A stretch of 64,000 nt of DNA, from assembly GCA_030748575.1 (NCBI GenBank), contig JASMLR010000002.1:230069-294068 (forward strand), written 5' to 3'. The notes below the pieces were generated by a model. The model searched no databases and was not told the DNA's origin. It was given only the letters and a program-made list of their open reading frames with translations. The stretch's first letter is position 1. Each line of letters starts with the position of its first letter. Source of the stretch: Phycisphaerales bacterium. Its GTDB lineage: Bacteria; Planctomycetota; Phycisphaerae; Phycisphaerales; SM1A02. Below, in pieces: positions 1,155 to 60,275 of the stretch. Position numbers and translations under genes: made by a program.

Positions 1155-2333
1155 TCATGGCCAGCGCGTGAACGCAACCTCGGTTCCAGCTTCGGCCGAT
1201 GCTGCCAGTGGCAGACGGATGACGCCTCTGGTCCCGGCCGCGTGGACGAGGTCGCCCGAACCATGCCAGACCGGGACGACGGCGGTGTCCGGCTGTGGTG
1301 TGCGGGCCGGGCGAAGCATGGTCCGCCGCGGGTTGCACCGAACGGTCTCTTCGAGCCGGACGGTTCGCCACCGCGGACCGGCTGGCAGGCCCAATCGGGT
1401 TCGCAGGACGGGTGCCAGAAACATGGCCGCGGTCACGAGGGCGGACACCGGGTTGCCAGGAAGGCAGACGACGACGCAGTCTCCAAGCACCCCCACGCGT
1501 GCGGGCTTGCCCGGCTGCATGCTCACGCCTTGAATGCACCACGTGGTGCCGGCAGCGTCCAGCGCCGCGGCGATGTGATCGTGTCGGCCGACGCTGATGC
1601 CACCGGTCGTCACGATGACGTCTGCCGCAGCGGTCTCGATCGCCGCGTCGACGGCCGCCCGATCGTCTGCGAGGTGCGAGGCGTCGGCCACTTCGCCGCC
1701 GATGCGGTGGATCATCGCGGTGACCATGGGCGCGTTTGAGTTTCGTATGGCGTGCGGCGAGGGGTCGGTTCCCTCGGCAACCACCTCGTTGCCGCTGGTC
1801 AGAATGGCAACCGTCGGCCTTCGGCGGACCAGCACCTTGTCGCGCCCGACCATGGCGGCAATGCCGACCTCCGCCGGGCCGAGCCGCTGGCCTTCGTGGA
1901 GGACGCAGTCGCCTTGCTCAACATCCTCCCCGCGTCGATGAATGTGCATGCCGCGGGGGGGCACCTCGCCGGTGATCATCATGGGATCGCCGCCATTGGT
2001 CTGCTCAATGGGAATCACCGTGTCGCAGTCCGGTGGAACGGCCGCCCCCGTCGAAATGCTCACGCAGGCGCCCGCGGGAACGCGGGGCGGGTCCTCGTCC
2101 CCCGCGCGGACGTCGCCGACGACGGGCCGGGGGCCTGCATCATCGGCGTGGGCGAAGGCATAGCCGTCCATCGCGGCGCGGTTGAAGGGTGGCGTGTCGC
2201 GGTCGGCGAGCACCGGCTTGGCCAGCACGCGGCCCTCGGCCGTCGGGAGGGGGACTGGATCGCAGTGGGGCGTGCACGCGCCAATCTGCGCGACGACGTC
2301 AAGGGCCTCGTCGAAGTTCATGAGGGCGGCCAT
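1155..2333 (-). CDS. moeA: Molybdopterin molybdenumtransferase MoeA
   Basis: 392 aa; PFNRAAMDGYAF, TSGNE and TTGGISVGRHD and QPGKPARVG-type motifs. Confidence 0.93.
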   Translation of the reverse strand: MAALMNFDEALDVVAQIGACTPHCDPVPLPTAEGRVLAKPVLADRDTPPFNRAAMDGYAFAHADDAGPRPVVGDVRAGDEDPPRVPAGACVSISTGAAVPPDCDTVIPIEQTNGGDPMMITGEVPPRGMHIHRRGEDVEQGDCVLHEGQRLGPAEVGIAAMVGRDKVLVRRRPTVAILTSGNEVVAEGTDPSPHAIRNSNAPMVTAMIHRIGGEVADASHLADDRAAVDAAIETAAADVIVTTGGISVGRHDHIAAALDAAGTTWCIQGVSMQPGKPARVGVLGDCVVVCLPGNPVSALVTAAMFLAPVLRTRLGLPAGPRWRTVRLEETVRCNPRRTMLRPARTPQPDTAVVPVWHGSGDLVHAAGTRGVIRLPLAASAEAGTEVAFTRWP

Positions 2334-2355: not shown

Positions 2356-2604
2356 TCAGCTCGCCTCGATCATGAGCGGAATCCGGCTCTCGCCGGTCTC
2401 GAGTACCTGCTTGAGGTAGGGGCGGCACATCCCGCAACTCCCGCCGCAGCCCCACTGGTCTTCAATGTCCGCGAGCGTCGTCTCACCGCGGTCCGCCGCC
2501 CAGTCGAGGATGTCCTGAAACGGGACCTCGTGGCAGATGCAGCGATCGACGTGCGGTTTCGGCCGCGGCGTCAGATCGGCGAGAGAGTCGCTGTTGTGAT
2601 CCAT
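2356..2604 (-). CDS. BFD-like [2Fe-2S]-binding domain protein
   Basis: 82 aa; CICHEV ... WGCGGSCGMCRPYL cysteine pattern of BFD-like domains. Confidence 0.75.
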   Translation of the reverse strand: MDHNSDSLADLTPRPKPHVDRCICHEVPFQDILDWAADRGETTLADIEDQWGCGGSCGMCRPYLKQVLETGESRIPLMIEAS

Positions 2605-2622
2605 GATTCCCTTCCAGAACGC

Positions 2623-3438
2623 TCACCGAGGATCATAGGCGGAGGCGTCCTCTGAAAGAAAGCCATTTCTGGGCCAGTCAAGTTGGGCGGTCATCCACGC
2701 TGGCAGGCTGTCCCAGTGTGCGCCGCGGTGCATGTGCCGCTGGGTCGAGACGTGGCCGTCGATCCACCCGACGTTGGAGCCGCCGTCTGGGAACGCCTGC
2801 CCGCCGCCGTAGGCGGTGTCGTAGCAGCCGGGGGCATTGACCGGCGATCGCATGAACTTGTTGACGCCGCCGCGTCTGCCTCCCGTTCCGAAGAGGGCCG
2901 CGGCGGCGCTTCGCCTGCACTGCTGAAGCGTGAGCGCCGCGCCGCCATCGAGATTGGGTTTCTCGATGACCAGATCCCACGCCCCGAGACCTGCATCGGT
3001 GCTGGTCGGGGGGCGTGCTTCCGCAGCCACGAACGCAACGTTGTAGTTGTAGCCCGTGGCAGGGTCGCCGCTCCAACCGGGATTGACGTGTTCGGCAGTG
3101 GGACACTGGAGGACTTGACGCTCGGAATTGCCATCCACGAGTGACCACAACTCGCCCGGCGTCACGGTTCCTGCGGCCGACCGCGTCCAGTCCCAGGCCC
3201 TGACGATCCCGCTGGTTGCGTTGCGGTCGGTGCCATAGAGCAGTCCGGGCGGAAACCGACCCTCCCGCTGCGCCGCGTAGCTCAGGGCCGCTCGCGTCAT
3301 CTGTCTGAGATTGCTTGCGCACTGCGCCCTGCGGGTGGACGTCGCCGCCGCGTCGAGGGCGGGAATCGCCAGGCTGGCGACGATGCCCAGCACGGCGATC
3401 ACGACCAGCAGCTCGGTGATGCTCAGGCCCCGCCTCAT
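2623..3438 (-). CDS. Prepilin-type N-terminal cleavage/methylation domain protein (H-X9-DG-like pseudopilin)
   Basis: MRRGLSITELLVVIAVLGIVASLAIP N-terminus; C-terminal GSNVGWIDGHVSTQRHMHRG; 4-nt overlap with upstream CDS. Confidence 0.85.
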   Translation of the reverse strand: MRRGLSITELLVVIAVLGIVASLAIPALDAAATSTRRAQCASNLRQMTRAALSYAAQREGRFPPGLLYGTDRNATSGIVRAWDWTRSAAGTVTPGELWSLVDGNSERQVLQCPTAEHVNPGWSGDPATGYNYNVAFVAAEARPPTSTDAGLGAWDLVIEKPNLDGGAALTLQQCRRSAAAALFGTGGRRGGVNKFMRSPVNAPGCYDTAYGGGQAFPDGGSNVGWIDGHVSTQRHMHRGAHWDSLPAWMTAQLDWPRNGFLSEDASAYDPR

Positions 3439-4310
3439 GCCCAGGCATCCAGAACAATCAGCAGGTCATCCACCCCTACGACGCCGTCCTGGTCCAGGTC
3501 CGCGCTGCTGTCCTGCTCGCCCCAGGCTCCGATGATCATGAGCAGGTCGTCGACGCCGACCACGCCGTCACCGTTCAGGTCCGCATCCGTCCACGGCCCG
3601 GCGTCGACCACCGCGTCGATTTCCGCCGAGAGCCAGGCGTCGGCGTCCACCGCGATGCGGACAAAGGAAATGGCCGCAAGCCCGGTCGGCGCCAGATCGA
3701 TGCCCGCGCCTCCGGCAGCGCCTCCGTAGAGGGTGAGGAGTTCGTTGAAGGTCAGCCCCTCGGCATCGGCGGCGCTCAGCGCAGGGTCCATCGCCGCGGT
3801 GGGGTCGGTGGGAATCTCGCCAGGCGCCTCGTCGTACGGGCCGGCGTCCTGCCAGGCCAGCGTCGGCCAGAGGCCGTCTGCGTGGATCCCCGAAATCTCG
3901 TGCCAGGTGACCCCGTCCCCGCTGACCGAGATGTCCCCTCCGTCGGCGCCGAAGAGACCACCGCACACTCCAGCGGGGAACGCGACGTCGATGAACCCCG
4001 CATTCCCGTACACAATCAGGTCGATGCCCCACGGGTTGGCCGGATCATCCAGCACGGGCTGGTCGAAGGCGAGCGTGATCGCGCCGCCAGCACCAAGGGA
4101 CACCACTTCGTCCGGTCGCCACGCCGGCGAGAACGGGGAGACCACGGAGGTCGTGGCGGTGTCCTCCCCGGTCAGCGTCTCGGGGGGCCCGAGTGCCGTG
4201 GCGGGGACGTCGTACCCCGGCGCGGCTCCGGTACCCGCTTGATAGGACACGACGGCATCGGCCCAGGGGTCGGATGCGAGCAGGGCGGTACAGATCAGCA
4301 GCAGGGGCAT
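3435..4310 (-). CDS. Secreted protein with C-terminal dockerin-like repeats
   Basis: N-terminal signal MPLLLICTALLASDPWA; two C-terminal repeats DLNGDGVVGVDDLLMIIGAWG / DLDQDGVVGVDDLLIVLDAWA. Confidence 0.85.
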   Translation of the reverse strand: MPLLLICTALLASDPWADAVVSYQAGTGAAPGYDVPATALGPPETLTGEDTATTSVVSPFSPAWRPDEVVSLGAGGAITLAFDQPVLDDPANPWGIDLIVYGNAGFIDVAFPAGVCGGLFGADGGDISVSGDGVTWHEISGIHADGLWPTLAWQDAGPYDEAPGEIPTDPTAAMDPALSAADAEGLTFNELLTLYGGAAGGAGIDLAPTGLAAISFVRIAVDADAWLSAEIDAVVDAGPWTDADLNGDGVVGVDDLLMIIGAWGEQDSSADLDQDGVVGVDDLLIVLDAWA

Positions 4311-4452
4311 GGCACACTCGCGTGTGGTCGCTCCAGGTCGCGTGGAGCGGCTCCCGGTCCATCCCGCACGCGGGGCTGGTTCGGCAGGACGCGGTCACCG
4401 GGAGCCTGGCGAGCGGCGCTGCCGACCCGGTTCGCGCGGGTCGAGGGCGAAT

Positions 4453-4614
4453 CACCGTGGAGTAGGTCTTCCGGCTCCGGGATTTCTGCCCGGCCTTCCC
4501 ACCCCGAGGGCAGCCTCGGGGCAGTGGCTTGGTGGGCGTTCGGGCAGTATGCCCTCCCGTTACGGCGGCGCGTCCGCGGTGGTCTCTCACCACACTTCCC
4601 TTGACGCCACGGTG
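4453..4614 (-). promoter_or_regulatory. Cobalamin (B12) riboswitch aptamer
   Basis: Minus strand: P1 CACCGTGG (4614-4607) pairs with CCACGGTG (4460-4453); core CAAGGGAAGTGTGGTGAGAGACCACCGCGGACGCGCCGCCGTAACGGG, B12-box-like AGCCACTGCCCCGAGG, GGGAAGG, and AAATCCCGGAGCCGGAAGACCTACTCC. Confidence 0.9.
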
Positions 4615-4759
4615 GCCCGGAGGATAGCAGGATGCCCAATCCACCGCCTTCAGGGCTGCGTTTGGCTTGCTCGGGTCCGCCGCCCTGACTATCCTCGCCG
4701 CTCCCCTTGTGCCGCCGCCATGTGGGCCAGCGCGGCACGTGACCCTGGAGCCAGTATTC

Positions 4760-6907
4760 ATGCGTATGCCTCTTCGACTTGCTTGCCTGACCACGGCCCT
4801 GATCGCGACCATCTGCGTCGCGACGCGACCCGCGGCGGCAGCCGATACGTCCCCGACCGAGATGCTCGAGGACTTTGTGCACTACGCACTGACCGCACAG
4901 GTAGAGCTGGCGAAAGCCAACGGCGAGGCCCTGCTGAGCAGCGACCTGAGCGACGAGGCGATTGCGGCGCTGGTCGATGAGGACCCTCGGCTGCGGGACC
5001 GACTTCCGGTGGCCATTCGGTGGGCTCGGGAAGTGCCGGGGCTGGTCGACATCGCCGGGGCGCTGGAGTCGCGTGTTGAGAAGGGGCGCATGGATCTTGC
5101 CCGCGACGAAGCGAGAATCCTGGAAGCGATTGACATGCTCGGCGGCACGCGGCGGGCCCGCTCGCTGGCTCGAACGCGGCTCGTTGAGGCCGGCGAGTAC
5201 GCGGTGCCGATGATGCTCGTGGCATTGAGCGACCCGGCCACCGCGCCGGACGTGCAACTCGGGCTGACCAGCACGCTGCCCACGCTCGGCCGTGAGGCAG
5301 TGCTGCCGCTCACGGCGGCGCTGCCCAACGTGCCGGAGTCCCAGCAGGTTCTGATCATCAACACCCTTGCCGACATCGGGTACCCGCACGCGGCCGCGTC
5401 GCTTGCAACCGTCGGACAGAATCCGGAGGCGTCAGACGTGGTTGTTGCCGCCTCTGCGAGGGCACTTCAGCGGCTGGGTTGGGAGACCCCCGATCTGGAC
5501 CTCGCCAGCCTGCACGTGCAGTTGTCCGAAGACTATCTGCGGGAGATGGAACACCTGCGAGCCCGGCCGACGCTGGCCGTGGATTCGAACGGTGATCTGG
5601 TGTCCTGGCAGACGATCTGGGGCTGGCATGACCACGGCGGGCTGGTCACCCAACTGGTCCCGACGGACCTGTACTGGCCGACGATGGCCGTGCGGCACGC
5701 CGATGAGGCCAGATCGATCGACCCCTCCAACGATGCGGCACTCGTGAGCTTTGTCGCGGGCAACCTCCGCCTTGAGAACCGTCTTGGAAGCCGAGATGTC
5801 GAACTTCCGGTGCCGGATCTTGACCGCAGCCCGAGCTTCCACGCCACGGTGCACGGCCCGGCCGTGGCCCGCGCCGTGCTCCTGATGGCGATCGATCAGA
5901 ACGATCCCGTGATGGCGCGTGATGCACTGGCGGCGCTGGCGAGAACCGGCGGTTCGGCCAGCCTGCTCGACGGTGGATCTCGGGAGGCCATTACCGAGGC
6001 GCTGGCGCATGACGATCAGCACGTTCGGTACGACGCAGCGCTCGTTGTGGCGCGTGCCATGCCCGATCAGTACTTCGCCGGGAGCAACCGCGTCGTACCG
6101 CTGCTCGGCGCTGCCGTGCAGGGTGGTGCGGGCCGGCAGGCCGCCGTGGTTGGCGGCTCGCAGACCGAGCAGCAGACCGCAGAAGACTGGCTCCACGCGG
6201 CCGACTATCAGATTGCAGGCACCGCGGCTTCGTGGGATGCCCTGCACGCGTCCACCCGCGCCGGCGGACTCGACCTTGCGGTCGTGTATGGCGGCGATGC
6301 ATCGACGTGGCAGGCCTTGACCGAAGCGGGCGTGCCCGTCGTGTTGATTGTGCCGTCGGCCGAGTTGGAGGACACGCGACTGGCAACAGCCGACGCCCAT
6401 GGCGTTGGCGTCATGAAGGCCGGCGCTACTGAAAAGGCTTTCGACGCCGTGCTGAAGGGCATGGGTCTGGCCAAGCCGCTGGACGAAGGTGATCGCCAGT
6501 TCTACGCCTCAGAGAGTCTCGCGGCGCTGCGTGACCTGGCTATGGCCAGACCGGCCGGGCTCAATGCGGCGGAAGCGGCGCCCCAACTGGAGCGAGCCCT
6601 CTCGGAAGACGATGGCCCGCAGCAGTTGATGATCGCAGAAGTCCTGGCCGTCATCGACGAGCCCTCGGCCCAGCAAGCCATCGTGGATGCTGCATTGCAT
6701 GCGACGGACGACTGGCAGCAGGCTGCCCTGCTCGATCTCGCAGCGGCGTCGGCCCGGAGATTCGGAGATCGCGTCACGCCCCGACAGGCCGCCGATCTCC
6801 GCAAGTTCATCGCCTCGGCGCGAGGCGATGTCGCGGACGCGGCCGCCCGACTCTACGGCGCGCTGGACCGAGGCGATCTGGTCTCGGCGAGCGCCAGCGG
6901 ATCCTGA
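4760..6907 (+). CDS. Secreted HEAT-repeat-like protein with internal receiver-like region
   Basis: Signal peptide MRMPLRLACLTTALIATICVATRPAAAA; alpha-helical repeat sequence; internal RQAAVVGGSQTEQQ...PVVLIVPSAELEDTRLATADAHGVGVMKAGATEKAF segment. Confidence 0.7.
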   Translation: MRMPLRLACLTTALIATICVATRPAAAADTSPTEMLEDFVHYALTAQVELAKANGEALLSSDLSDEAIAALVDEDPRLRDRLPVAIRWAREVPGLVDIAGALESRVEKGRMDLARDEARILEAIDMLGGTRRARSLARTRLVEAGEYAVPMMLVALSDPATAPDVQLGLTSTLPTLGREAVLPLTAALPNVPESQQVLIINTLADIGYPHAAASLATVGQNPEASDVVVAASARALQRLGWETPDLDLASLHVQLSEDYLREMEHLRARPTLAVDSNGDLVSWQTIWGWHDHGGLVTQLVPTDLYWPTMAVRHADEARSIDPSNDAALVSFVAGNLRLENRLGSRDVELPVPDLDRSPSFHATVHGPAVARAVLLMAIDQNDPVMARDALAALARTGGSASLLDGGSREAITEALAHDDQHVRYDAALVVARAMPDQYFAGSNRVVPLLGAAVQGGAGRQAAVVGGSQTEQQTAEDWLHAADYQIAGTAASWDALHASTRAGGLDLAVVYGGDASTWQALTEAGVPVVLIVPSAELEDTRLATADAHGVGVMKAGATEKAFDAVLKGMGLAKPLDEGDRQFYASESLAALRDLAMARPAGLNAAEAAPQLERALSEDDGPQQLMIAEVLAVIDEPSAQQAIVDAALHATDDWQQAALLDLAAASARRFGDRVTPRQAADLRKFIASARGDVADAAARLYGALDRGDLVSASASGS

Positions 6908-7065: not shown

Positions 7066-8055
7066 ATGATGCGACTCGCCGGCGTATTGGCTGCAGCGAT
7101 GTTGAGCGGTACTGTCTGGGGACAGGATCAGGCGGCTTCAGAGCCTCCACCCGCCGCGGCGACACCGCCGACGGTTGAGGCCATCATCGACCGGTACGTC
7201 GAAGCGACCGGCGGTCGCGAAGCGTGGGCGTCGCTGCGGTCCCTGCGGGGGCTGGGGCGGCTTGAGGTCATCGGGGCAGGCCTGACTGGCAACGTCGCGG
7301 TCTTTCAGACTCGATCGGGCTTTCGCCGGTCTGTCGACGTCGCTGCGGGTGGATCGCAGATCACGCTCAGACGCGGCGATCAGGCCTGGGCCGTTCGGCC
7401 GGACGGCACCGTGAGCGAACTGGCAGGCGATGAACTGCGTCGCCTCATGCGGGATGGCGGGTTCAACCCGCTGCTGGATCCGACAGCGTTGTACTCGTCC
7501 ATGTCGCTGGCCGGCGTTGAGGATGTTGAGGGCGCTCAGGCATGGAAGGTGATCTGCATTCCCAATGACGCGCAAGGCGCCTCCGATGTTCGATACTTCG
7601 ACATCGAGTCGGGGTTGCAGGTCAAGGTGGTTGAAACGGGGGAAGGCAAGGCCGCCGCGTTTCCGACGGAGATGTACATGTCGGACTACCGGCAGGTCGG
7701 CCCTGTGCGGATCGCGGTGGACTCGACCGTAGCCATTGGCCGGAACCGGATTCGCATTGTCATGGACGCCATGCAGGCCAACGTCGAAATCCCGGCGTGC
7801 CTCTTCGATCCGCCGACCGGACCGGTACAGGCTGCACCTTTGCCGGACCCGAAGGAGACGCTGGAAGCGTTCATGAAGGTCGATCTTGACCGGCTCTCGC
7901 AAGGCGAGACGCAGCGTTGGCTCGCCCGCCTCACCGACGCCAGAAAGGCGATCGACGATGCCTCCCCGAACGCCAGCGAGATGAATACAGCGCTTCGCCA
8001 GTTCCAGATTGACTGCGCGACCCACCTGCGGGAGATCACCTCCGGCGGCGAGTGA
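7066..8055 (+). CDS. Secreted protein resembling outer-membrane lipoprotein-sorting (LolA-like) proteins
   Basis: Signal peptide; VEAIIDRYVEATGGREAWASLRSLRGLGRLEV start; similar overall pattern to the CDS at 55893-56636. Confidence 0.6.
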   Translation: MMRLAGVLAAAMLSGTVWGQDQAASEPPPAAATPPTVEAIIDRYVEATGGREAWASLRSLRGLGRLEVIGAGLTGNVAVFQTRSGFRRSVDVAAGGSQITLRRGDQAWAVRPDGTVSELAGDELRRLMRDGGFNPLLDPTALYSSMSLAGVEDVEGAQAWKVICIPNDAQGASDVRYFDIESGLQVKVVETGEGKAAAFPTEMYMSDYRQVGPVRIAVDSTVAIGRNRIRIVMDAMQANVEIPACLFDPPTGPVQAAPLPDPKETLEAFMKVDLDRLSQGETQRWLARLTDARKAIDDASPNASEMNTALRQFQIDCATHLREITSGGE

Positions 8056-8454
8056 GTGTCGGGGCCCTGGCACCGCGGCCGCCCCTGAGGTTGATCAAAG
8101 CGTTCACGCCCTGTCCGGGCGGCGTCGTCGAGGCGTGCCCATCATGCAGGCGGGGCCGGTTCGGCGGCGGGCCGTTGGCTGGCGGCGAGTGCGCGTCGGG
8201 GCCTCGGTAGCGGGGCCGCCCCTGAGGTTGATCGAAGCGACCACATCTTGTCCGGGCGGACGGATCGTGGCGTGCCCATCATGCAGGCGGGGCCGGTTCG
8301 GCGGCGGGCCGCTGGCTGGCGGCGAGTGCGCGTCGGGGCCTCGGTAGCGGGGCCGCCCCGTGGGCTGATCGAAGCGTTCACGCCCTGCCCGGGCGGCGGC
8401 GTCGTGGCGCGTTCACCTTGCAGGCGGGGTCGGTTCGGCGGCGGCACTTCGCTG
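8044..8454 (+). repeat. Three tandem copies of a 137-bp repeat
   Basis: Landmarks recur exactly 137 bp apart: ggcggcgagtg at 8044/8181/8318(/degenerate 8455), ttgatc or ctgatc at 8091/8228/8365, atgcagg or ttgcagg at 8144/8281/8418. Confidence 0.93.
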
Positions 8455-19601: not shown

Positions 19602-19605
19602 CTCG

Positions 19606-20003
<398 letters not shown>

Positions 20004-56636: not shown

Positions 56637-56735
56637 GGGTGAGGGATCATACGCTGGCGCGGTCGCCAGCCATCCTGATCCGCTCATCCGGATAGACGGT
56701 TGAAGGGTTCGTCGGCCCGCGCTATGCTGCCGCTC

Positions 56736-59700
56736 ATGCCACCGCACCTGCTTGATGGGCTCGCTCGGCGACCGCTGGTCCTCGATGGCGCCATGGGGTC
56801 CACGCTGCAGGGCATCGACCTGGACGAAGCGCGGGACTACCTCGGCCACGAGAACTGCGTGGATCTGCTCGTGCGGTCGAGACCTGAACTGATTCAATCC
56901 ATCCACGAGCAGTATCTGGCTGCCGGGTGTGACGCTGTCGAGACCAATACCTTTGGCGCCAACCGGCTGGTGCTTGCCGAATTCGACCCGGAACTGGCGG
57001 AGTGGACGGTCGATCTGAACCGGGAGGCGGCCGAGGTGGCCAGGGCGGCGTGTGACGCGCACGCGAGCGCCTCGCACCCACGATTCGTCATCGGGTCGCT
57101 TGGGCCCGGCACCAGGATTCTCTCACTGGGACAAGCCACCTGGGCGGACATGGAGCGGTCCTACGCCGATCAGGTTCGCGGTCTGTTGGCCGGGGGCGTC
57201 GATGCGTTGCTGATCGAGACGGCGCAGGATCTCCTTCAGATCAAGTGTGCCGTCAACGGATGCCTTCGAGCCATGGACGAGGCTGGGACCTCGCCACGCA
57301 GGATTCCCATCCTCGTCAGTGTCACCATCGAATCGACAGGAACCATGCTGCTGGGCACGGACATCGCGGCGGCCGTCGCTGCGCTGCGGAGTTATCCCAT
57401 CGCGTCGCTCGGTCTCAACTGCGCGACCGGCCCCCGCGAGATGGCGCCGCACCTTGAGTATCTGTGCCGGCACTGGGACCGCTACGTCTCGTGCGTGCCC
57501 AACGCGGGCCTTCCGGTTCTGGTCGACGGGCGAACCGAGTTTCCACTTTCACCCGACCCTCTGGCGGAAACGGTGCGAGATCTGGTGACACGGCTCGGCG
57601 TCGACATCATCGGCGGGTGCTGCGGGACCACGCCTGCGCACATCGAACTGCTCGCAAGGACGGCCGCTGAGCACCCCAGGGCCGCGAGACAGGTGGTGCC
57701 GCCTCCGGCGTCGTGTTCGAGTCTCTACACGCCCATGCCATACAGGCAGGAGCAGTCGTTCTTCATCGTTGGCGAGCGCATGAACGCGTCCGGGAGCAGG
57801 AAGTTCAAGCGGCTGCTCGAAGCCGAGCAGTTTGACGACATGGTCTCGCTCGGGCGACAACAGGTTCGCGAGGGGGCGAACTGCCTTGACATCAATGTCG
57901 ATCAGGCTGGGCGTGACGGCCCGGCAGACATGGCGCGGTTGGTGTCGGAGACCGTTCGCCAGGTGGACGCGCCGATCATGATTGACTCGACGCAGCCGGC
58001 GGTCATCGAGGCAGGGCTTCGCCATGCAGGCGGGCGGTGCGTCGTCAACTCGGCAAACTTCGAGGAGGGCGAAGAGAAGTTCGACCGCCTGTGCGCCCTG
58101 GCAAAGAAGTATGGCGCTGGCCTGGTGATTGGCACGATCGACGAAGATCCGGAAGAGGCCATGGCTCGCACGGCGGATCGCAAGTATGAGATTGCCCACC
58201 GCGGCATCGCCCGCGCGACTGAACTGCACGGGCTGGCGATTGAAGACCTGTTCATTGATCCGCTGGTGCTTCCCGTCTCCACGGGAATGGATTCGGATCG
58301 TCGCAGCTCGCTGGAACTGGTGGAGGGCGTTCGGCGGATCTCCGCTGCGTGGCCGGACGTTCAGATCACCTGCGGGCTCTCCAACTGCTCCTTTGGTCTG
58401 AATCCCGCGGCGCGGCAGGTGCTCAACTCCGTGCTCCTCTGGGAACTGCTTGACGCCGGTCTCACCAGTGCCATTGTGCATGCATCCAAGATTCAGCCCA
58501 TGAATCGGATCGATGCCGAACGCAAGCAGGCGGCACTGGACGTGATCTATGACCGGCGTGCGTTGACGCACGGCGGAACGGGGCTTCCGGCAGGTCTGCA
58601 GGACGAGTCGCACGATCCGCTGCAGCACTTGATCGATCTGTTTGACGAAGACTCCGGTGTCGAGCGAGCCGAACCGCAGACGCATCGGTCGCTCGAGGAG
58701 GTCCTGCAAGCTCACATTGTGGATGGCGAGAAGCGGGAACTTGAGGCGCATCTTGACGAGGCGATGGTGAGGTGGAGCCCCCTGGAGATCATCAACGAGC
58801 ACCTGCTGGCCGGAATGAAGACCGTGGGCGAACTGTTCGGATCCGGTCAGATGCAGTTGCCGTTCGTGTTGCAGTCGGCGGAGGTGATGAAGCGTGCCGT
58901 GGGGCACCTGGAGCCCCACATGAGCGCCGAGGAGGGTCCGGCCAAGGGGCATGTTGTGCTGGCGACGGTGAAGGGCGACGTGCACGACATCGGCAAGAAT
59001 CTGGTCGACATCATCCTGACCAACAACGGGTGGACGGTCGAGAACATCGGAATCAAGCGGACGATCGATGAGATCGTTCAGGCGTGGAGGCGAACCGGCG
59101 CCGACGCCGTTGGCATGTCGGGGCTCCTCGTCAAGAGCGTCATGGTGATGGAGGACAACCTTCGCGCGCTCAATGAAATGTCCATCGACGTTCCCGTTCT
59201 GCTCGGCGGCGCGGCGTTGTCACGCTCGTACTGCGAGTCACACTTGCGGGAGCTCTATGGCGGCCGTGTCTACTACGGCAAGGACGCCTTCGACGGCCTG
59301 CGTATCTGCGACGCGCTGGCGGAAGGCAGGGGCGGGGCGATCGACGCCGAGATTGATCGGCGGTTGTCGGCTCGGGCGGCGGCCGCGGAGCGAACTGAGC
59401 ACATGGAGACGGCGGAGCGGGGCGAAGGCGATGTGGCCACCATCGAAGTGGAACGCAGCGATGTTGCAACTGACGTCGCCGTGCCGACGCCGCCATGTTT
59501 CGGCCCGAGGGTCGTTCGGGACATTCCCCTCGACGCGGTGTACCCGTACGTGAATACCACGGCCCTCTTCAGGGGGCAATGGGGCTTTCGGCGGGGGCAG
59601 CGGAGCCGCGGGGACTTCCACAGGGTGCTTCACGAGGAAGCCGAGCCGGTCTTCGAGCGACTCAAGGCTGAACTGCGTGATGCGGACGTGCTCCAGCCGG

Positions 59701-60275
59701 CGCTGGTGTATGGATGGTTCCCGTGCGGCTCCGAGGGAGACGACCTGGTCATCTTCGACCCGGAGGCTCCGCAGGAGGAGATCGAGCGATTCACCTTTCC
59801 CAGACAGGGAAAGCGGCGAAGGCTCTGCATCAGTGACTTCTTCAGGCCGGTCGATGGGGGCGTGCCGGATGTGTTGGGGCTGTCGTGCGTCACGATGGGC
59901 GGCAGAGTCAGCGAGTTGGCGCAGTCTCTGTTCGAGCGTGACGAATACACCGAGTATCTCTACGTGCACGGGATGGGCGTGGAGTGTGCAGAAGCGCTCG
60001 CTGAAATGTGGCACAAGCGCATGCGGCAGGAGCTTGGGATTGCGGGCCAGGACAGCCCGCATGTTGAGCGTCTCTTTCAGCAGAAGTATCGGGGGAGCCG
60101 GTATTCGTTCGGCTATCCGGCATGCCCGGATATGTCGCATCAGGAGAAACTATTCGGCCTGCTCGACCCGAGCCGCATCGGTTGCTCATTGACCGAGAAC
60201 TGGCAGATCGACCCGGAGCAAAGCACGAGCGCGATCATCGTGCATCACCCCGAAGCGAAGTACTTCAACGTCTGA
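56736..60275 (+). CDS. metH: Cobalamin-dependent methionine synthase
   Basis: Hcy-binding GAMGSTLQ...NTFGANRL...GGCCGTTPAHI; pterin domain GERMNASGSRKFKRLL; B12 motif VKGDVHDIGKNLVDIILTNNGW; C-terminal activation domain. Confidence 0.97.
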   Translation: MPPHLLDGLARRPLVLDGAMGSTLQGIDLDEARDYLGHENCVDLLVRSRPELIQSIHEQYLAAGCDAVETNTFGANRLVLAEFDPELAEWTVDLNREAAEVARAACDAHASASHPRFVIGSLGPGTRILSLGQATWADMERSYADQVRGLLAGGVDALLIETAQDLLQIKCAVNGCLRAMDEAGTSPRRIPILVSVTIESTGTMLLGTDIAAAVAALRSYPIASLGLNCATGPREMAPHLEYLCRHWDRYVSCVPNAGLPVLVDGRTEFPLSPDPLAETVRDLVTRLGVDIIGGCCGTTPAHIELLARTAAEHPRAARQVVPPPASCSSLYTPMPYRQEQSFFIVGERMNASGSRKFKRLLEAEQFDDMVSLGRQQVREGANCLDINVDQAGRDGPADMARLVSETVRQVDAPIMIDSTQPAVIEAGLRHAGGRCVVNSANFEEGEEKFDRLCALAKKYGAGLVIGTIDEDPEEAMARTADRKYEIAHRGIARATELHGLAIEDLFIDPLVLPVSTGMDSDRRSSLELVEGVRRISAAWPDVQITCGLSNCSFGLNPAARQVLNSVLLWELLDAGLTSAIVHASKIQPMNRIDAERKQAALDVIYDRRALTHGGTGLPAGLQDESHDPLQHLIDLFDEDSGVERAEPQTHRSLEEVLQAHIVDGEKRELEAHLDEAMVRWSPLEIINEHLLAGMKTVGELFGSGQMQLPFVLQSAEVMKRAVGHLEPHMSAEEGPAKGHVVLATVKGDVHDIGKNLVDIILTNNGWTVENIGIKRTIDEIVQAWRRTGADAVGMSGLLVKSVMVMEDNLRALNEMSIDVPVLLGGAALSRSYCESHLRELYGGRVYYGKDAFDGLRICDALAEGRGGAIDAEIDRRLSARAAAAERTEHMETAERGEGDVATIEVERSDVATDVAVPTPPCFGPRVVRDIPLDAVYPYVNTTALFRGQWGFRRGQRSRGDFHRVLHEEAEPVFERLKAELRDADVLQPALVYGWFPCGSEGDDLVIFDPEAPQEEIERFTFPRQGKRRRLCISDFFRPVDGGVPDVLGLSCVTMGGRVSELAQSLFERDEYTEYLYVHGMGVECAEALAEMWHKRMRQELGIAGQDSPHVERLFQQKYRGSRYSFGYPACPDMSHQEKLFGLLDPSRIGCSLTENWQIDPEQSTSAIIVHHPEAKYFNV

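Follow-up and report, generated by a model that had tools for sequence, protein, structure and literature searches.

Surface scavenging of vitamin B12 is known from gut Bacteroides, where beta-propeller lipoproteins of the BtuG type bind the vitamin; one of them, BtuG1, bears a C-terminal BtuH domain (PMC10404256). BtuH proteins of these bacteria are secreted or surface-type and linked to a cobalamin riboswitch, and BtuH2 was reported to bind B12 with a KD near 6 pM, its Asn399 touching the phosphate of the ligand (PMC8941943). BtuJ proteins, which carry DUF4465 (PF14717), are likewise surface B12 scavengers under cobalamin riboswitches; binding of B12 by DUF4465 proteins includes one from the phycisphaeral planctomycete Mucisphaera calidilacus (PMC13398666).

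Here, we describe a locus in a Phycisphaerales genome which is likely an operon serving a B12-dependent planctomycete of the Phycisphaerae in the scavenging of vitamin B12 (corrinoids). The riboswitch, the identities of the genes, the homology of one domain to BtuH and the conservation of the gene set were established directly. The window referred to below is the whole stretch of 64,000 nucleotides that was analysed.

Cobalamin riboswitch and gene order

The locus comprises the following features.

4444-4624, minus strand: complete cobalamin riboswitch aptamer (RF00174; cmscan, 53 bits, E 2.3e-10, model positions 1-189)
4560-4578, minus strand: P5/L5 region CGCGGACGCGCCGCCGUAA of the aptamer (alignment of 19 relatives)
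4422-4444, minus strand: P13-like regulatory hairpin UCGACCCG-CGCGAAC-CGGGUCGG (script over 19 loci)
3435-4310, minus strand: secreted BtuH-related protein of 291 aa with signal peptide, BtuH-like domain (about residues 15-240) and dockerin tail
4002-4004, minus strand: codon of the invariant Asn103 (YGN motif), aligned with Asn399 of BtuH2 (alignment)
3438-3584, minus strand: GC-type dockerin tail of the 291-aa protein (NF041540, 29.3 bits against a cut-off of 29, marginal)
2623-3438, minus strand: dedicated prepilin-like protein of 271 aa (TIGR02532), overlapping the 291-aa reading frame by 4 nt
2356-2604, minus strand: BFD-like [2Fe-2S] protein of 82 aa (PF04324, 33 bits, above cut-off)
1155-2333, minus strand: MoeA-like gene (PF03453/PF00994)

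The aptamer is covered by the Rfam covariance model over its full length with a score well above the gathering threshold of RF00174 (31.5 bits), the E-value being computed for the 64-kb window, and it is the sole RF00174 match in the genome (2.38 Mb, 97% complete). Its P1 helix comprises 8 bp (arms CACCGUGG/CCACGGUG), and the GCCACUG box as well as the GGGAAGG and AAGACC blocks are present. The preliminary description, made from the sequence alone, had claimed a complete cobalamin aptamer on the minus strand with exactly these elements and named the lack of a significant covariance-model match as grounds for refutation; the claim withstood this search. Equally, the gene layout it gave, a secreted 291-aa protein with dockerin-like tail overlapping a prepilin by 4 nt and followed after 18 nt by a BFD-like protein, agrees with the coordinates and profile matches obtained here. 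Its remark that none of these genes is a canonical btu/cob gene was not quite right, as the secreted protein is a relative of BtuH.

Directly 3' of the aptamer lies a hairpin with a stem of 7-8 bp whose CGCG loop is complementary to L5 (ACGCGCC), a pairing which is predicted and without experimental support. This arrangement in the window is like that of kissing-loop cobalamin riboswitches. A hairpin with CGCG loop recurs in most of the 19 loci, with differing stem sequences and the CGCG of L5 kept; the script left L024, L019 and a few other loci unresolved. Covariation between the two loops is possible as far as the alignment can tell. L5 is unusual in the class, reading GACGCGCC in place of GGCCCCGCC, and some loci whose L5 is canonical or altered lack the CGCG-loop hairpin or have it displaced (L009, L010, L016, L019, L024). 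In L023, the corresponding hairpin bears AGGGA in its 3' arm, six nt ahead of an ATG, which suggests translational control in that locus on the evidence of sequence alone; in the window, unlike in L023, the start codon follows ~110 nt beyond the hairpin. A pattern scan of the locus found neither a terminator nor a sigma-70 promoter. The window riboswitch is probably functional, cobalamin binding and ligand-dependent expression being inferred.

Behind the riboswitch, the genes of the secreted protein, the prepilin, the BFD-like protein and the MoeA-like protein follow in tandem on the minus strand, with a gap of 18 nt between the second and the third. In 41 loci, a BFD gene with the orientation of the prepilin follows it at a distance of no more than ~110 nt. 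The MoeA-like gene comes after the operon in merely 5 of 21 loci; it is possibly co-transcribed with the operon and probably not part of the functional system.

Homologues of the secreted protein were found in 166 of 300 genomes of the class and, in a draw from the whole phylum, in 57 of 399 genomes, the strong ones nearly all from the class. By Rfam, a cobalamin riboswitch lies just upstream in 31 of 32 homologous loci. The exception is L017 (genome G178), a close relative which kept the BtuH-like gene and the prepilin; no cobalamin riboswitch was detected in its neighbourhood or genome, even at E 5. RF00174 matches occur in 283 of the 300 class genomes and, among the matches listed, 56 of the 65 riboswitches from genomes that also have a listed homologue are located upstream of the homologue, on the same strand and within 3 kb. 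Counting the riboswitch core by regular expression gave 43 of 64, which is a lower bound because this expression recovers 14 of 21 Rfam positives; several loci missed by it came out Rfam-positive. Had homologues never been associated with riboswitches or corrinoid genes, the initial proposal of a B12-responsive system would have failed; they are almost always riboswitch-linked, and relatives with corrinoid genes exist.

Several further observations were made around the locus and in its relatives. The divergent neighbour of the operon (4667-6907, plus strand) encodes a secreted HEAT-repeat-like protein of ~715-746 aa, a homologue of which (cluster c2) occupies the same place in 14 of 20 relative loci examined. 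GC-rich repeated segments at ~8010-8450, with recurring translations such as 'PSCRRGRFGGGPLAGGECASGPR' in several frames, apparently represent an intergenic repeat, and a class A RNase P RNA is located at 19602-20003 on the minus strand (246 bits). In L149, L141, L148, L140 and L135, the riboswitch-led operon also includes second and third secreted proteins of DUF4465 and beta-propeller types, located before or after the BtuH-like gene; they end in PEP-CTERM or dockerin tails, and gene order varies by family.

Relation of the secreted protein to BtuH

Pfam contains no family for residues 1-240 of the secreted protein, and single-sequence and profile searches of PDB and Pfam were likewise empty; its relation to BtuH surfaced solely through a fold search and a BtuH profile. 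An AlphaFold2 model built on an alignment of 30 homologues (pLDDT 93) was compared with the PDB by Foldseek. Of the matches listed, a single one had an E-value under 1e-3, namely Bacteroides thetaiotaomicron BtuG1 (E 9.2e-6; 8BLW chain B), and the BtuH2 structure 7BIZ was absent from the best 50 listed. As the superposition on BtuG1 was poor (TM 0.40, rmsd 14 Å), the relation to BtuH was therefore tested by sequence. The first lead to BtuH had been a Bacteroides sequence used as query; the conclusion rests on BtuH domains from database sequences of Bacteroides and from Persicobacter plasmid records.

Alignment of the planctomycete profile with BtuH by hhalign gave a global probability of 97.6 and a local score of 63.1, compared to at most 20.1 for 60 column shuffles and 11.1 for the reversed profile. 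In addition, class proteins bridging both groups were identified in L150, L133, L135, L140 and L146, which match BtuH with E-values of 1e-25 to 1e-37 and the window family with 1e-16 to 1e-19 (L150: 2.2e-37 and 4.2e-16, respectively) and retain a PAPGQ-type motif (PAPGQF). Classification of the 240-aa domain as a divergent homologue of BtuH is well supported by these profile comparisons. This homology makes B12 capture the leading function of the secreted protein, as had been inferred in the preliminary description; B12 binding itself remains inferred, as no binding data exist.

The alternative identity as a DUF4465 protein was rejected: PF14717 matched neither the window protein nor the 30 aligned members, and the hhalign probability of BtuJ2 (DUF4465) against the window family was below 1%. 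Viral contigs were also searched and no BtuH was found. Tails similar to dockerins are present in 30 of 37 homologues.

Function of the operon and competing explanations

A need of the genome for B12 uptake is indicated by the presence of MetH and the absence of CobD/CbiB: the metH gene is intact in the window (56700-60275), bearing out the earlier statement on a B12-dependent metH in this stretch, and CobD/CbiB was not found in the window genome. Outside the operon, this genome encodes one BtuC/BtuD-like pair and one BtuF-like protein of ambiguous substrate specificity. Its only strong FecCD-type permease (G000 contig 66, L158:4962-6768, minus strand) overlaps an ATPase gene beside an MsbA-like ABC gene without an adjoining periplasmic binding protein, and the single Peripla_BP_2 protein is encoded on contig 44.

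For the scavenging operon that we consider likely, the following course of events can be envisaged. At low intracellular cobalamin, the riboswitch would leave the operon on, and the dockerin-anchored, BtuH-related secreted protein would capture corrinoids at the cell surface. The prepilin would probably be part of a pilus or pseudopilus, helping to present the binder or to bring captured B12 through the outer membrane; the small [2Fe-2S] BFD protein may have a part in reducing intracellular cobalamin. With sufficient cobalamin, the aptamer would be bound, the kissing contact between L5 and hairpin would form and expression would be shut off. This OFF-type control, the surface location of the binder and the roles of pilin and BFD protein are, like B12 binding, inferences. 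Against the scavenging reading count the seven of eight B12 contacts which are unrecognisable, the TM value of 0.40 together with the absence of 7BIZ from the Foldseek matches listed, the riboswitch-less L017, the ambiguous substrate of the BtuC/BtuD-like pair and the absence of expression and binding data.

The prepilin matches TIGR02532 with 23.0 bits (cut-off 16.3) and shows an N-terminal GLSITE prepilin motif, an H-X9-DG-like site and the C-terminal sequence NGFLSEDASAYDPR. An AlphaFold2 model (pLDDT 91.6) contains an N-terminal helix spanning residues 7-57, and the PDB profile matches, all to pilin helices, are restricted to this part; a fold search gave no PDB match for the head. Membership in DUF1559 (PF07596) was rejected with 21.0 bits, below the gathering threshold of 23.3. 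The prepilin profile comprised 23 sequences, in part taken from the tested loci themselves. With it, the prepilin was detected on the same strand in all 80 loci whose downstream sequence extends over 2.5 kb or more (~73 distinct contigs), at E-values of 1e-34 to 1e-83 and essentially full length in nearly all cases, and nowhere else in 1,922 strand-kb of flanks. The window genome has nine other prepilin-profile matches, which cover the N-terminal ~80 residues only. Judged by these comparisons, the prepilin is one dedicated, riboswitch-linked family; its inclusion in the system, as proposed from the start, is confirmed by this conservation, its role being inferred.

Both TonB domains, barrel (PF00593) and plug (PF07715), are absent from the window genome, while E. 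coli and Bacteroides controls were positive. In the class, a TonB plug is present in 59 of 151 genomes (39%) and absent from 92, and among the genomes with strong homologues it is missing from 13 of 17; some strains with the operon have TonB receptors. Planctomycete porins are said to pass only molecules of up to ~600 Da (PMC5394234), and our literature search found no answer to how planctomycetes without TonB receptors import B12, which at ~1.36 kDa is roughly twice this limit; the question appears unanswered. Pili-like fibres of planctomycetes have been linked to the uptake of macromolecules (PMC5394234). A dedicated, riboswitch-linked prepilin in an operon of the kind that bears BtuB in Bacteroides is therefore suggestive. 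One can speculate that in Phycisphaerae B12 crosses the outer membrane independently of TonB and assisted by a pilus, prepilin and surface corrinoid binders being switched on at B12 shortage in place of BtuB, so that the prepilin would draw captured B12 into the periplasm. We regard this specific route as tentative and rather unlikely.

Another role of the prepilin, which we take as a real possibility while leaning against it, is that of a pseudopilus or anchor for secretion or display of BtuH-like and dockerin proteins, with B12 entering independently of TonB through genes elsewhere. Such a role fits the resemblance of only the N-terminal helix to known structures, the GspG/pilin-type profile matches, the sorting system implied by dockerin and PEP-CTERM tails and the TonB receptors in 39% of the class, including strains that bear the operon. 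However, in L143-L145 the prepilin is under a riboswitch although no BtuH-like gene was recognised, and it belongs to a single dedicated family rather than being one of the other prepilins of the genome.

The binding site of the secreted protein raises the question whether the BtuH-like domain of this subfamily has lost B12 binding and acquired a new surface role (e.g. for a glycan or metal), the riboswitch being inherited from an ancestral B12 locus. Among the BtuH2 contacts Q333, N399, F401, H476, Y510, W511, W577 and L578, N399 alone is recognisable in the window protein (1/8); the position of Phe401 is occupied by Gly, and the loops bearing the equivalents of His476, Tyr510, Trp511 and Trp577 are shortened. 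That most of the loops in contact with the corrin are missing or reduced, and that Foldseek shows a distant likeness to carbohydrate-binding modules (every E above 0.01), speaks for such a loss. Several of the eight contact residues also vary among the aligned Bacteroidota BtuH domains. We consider the loss of binding improbable, since Asn103, which corresponds to the phosphate-contacting Asn399, is invariant across the window family and the riboswitch, the sole one for cobalamin in the window genome, is kept in 31 of 32 loci.

Operons of relatives bear on a further explanation, namely that the system serves not uptake but a B12-dependent remodelling of the surface (biofilm or adhesion), low B12 triggering pili and dockerin proteins for attachment to B12-producing partners. 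A pilin and a dockerin-anchored secreted protein under a riboswitch would suit this idea, as would the pili-like fibres and holdfasts of planctomycetes (PMC5394234). In L149 (genome G008), however, the operon consists of genes for a DUF4465 protein (PF14717, 2.3e-56), a BtuH-like protein, a prepilin, Peripla_BP_2, an ABC ATPase and a FecCD permease whose best NCBIfam match is BtuC, the last three being of BtuF/D/C type, and the operon of L138 starts with a PduO-type cobalamin adenosyltransferase gene (PF01923, 3e-59). G021 points to uptake as well, with a TonB plug domain encoded ~400 nt downstream of a riboswitch. Remodelling is very unlikely in the light of these corrinoid genes. Chance similarity of a GC-rich leader to the riboswitch is hardly conceivable: the thermodynamic z-score of the leader is just -1.3, but the match is full-length at E 2.3e-10, recurs at the same position in 31 of 32 relatives and is followed by a hairpin whose stem varies while its L5-complementary loop is kept.

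Comparison with known B12 scavenging systems

The B12 scavenging operon proposed here may show how a class mostly without the usual outer-membrane gate for B12 obtains this vitamin. It provides a concrete gene set, with a relative of the BtuH family beyond Bacteroidota and the few reported Firmicutes and a riboswitch-linked pilin family across the class. Surface B12 scavenging as known from gut Bacteroides would thereby reach into abundant aquatic bacteria, with the pilin as an unexpected addition. This combination was not found described in our literature search, the coverage of which excluded most subscription papers.

With BtuH of Bacteroides (BtuH1/BtuH2 and the H domain of BtuG1; PDB 7BIZ and 8BLW), the window protein shares a homologous domain, a secreted or surface-type nature, a cobalamin riboswitch and the Asn residue. 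It differs by its origin from another phylum, a core of 240 aa and shortened corrin-contact loops; moreover, a C-terminal dockerin or PEP-CTERM in the planctomycetes replaces the lipid anchor and PKD/propeller domains, and the operon lacks BtuB. A DUF4465 gene like those of the BtuJ type is part of the same operon in L149, whereas the window protein itself has neither a PF14717 match nor profile similarity to DUF4465. BtuG finds a parallel in several relatives with a PQQ-type beta-propeller in the riboswitch-led operon, in some of which this secreted protein is encoded between the BtuH-like gene and the prepilin; these propellers, however, are of PQQ_2/BamB type, several are dockerin-tailed, no B12-binding data exist for them and none occurs in the window. 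The prepilin has its N-terminus and H-X9-DG-like site in common with planctomycete prepilin-type/H-X9-DG (DUF1559-like) proteins but is single-copy and riboswitch-linked, with a conserved head and C-terminus of its own.

Sharing a single homologous component and its kind of switch with the Bacteroides BtuG/H/J systems, the operon is best read as their planctomycete counterpart, set apart by dockerin anchoring, the BFD protein and, as a new component, the dedicated prepilin.
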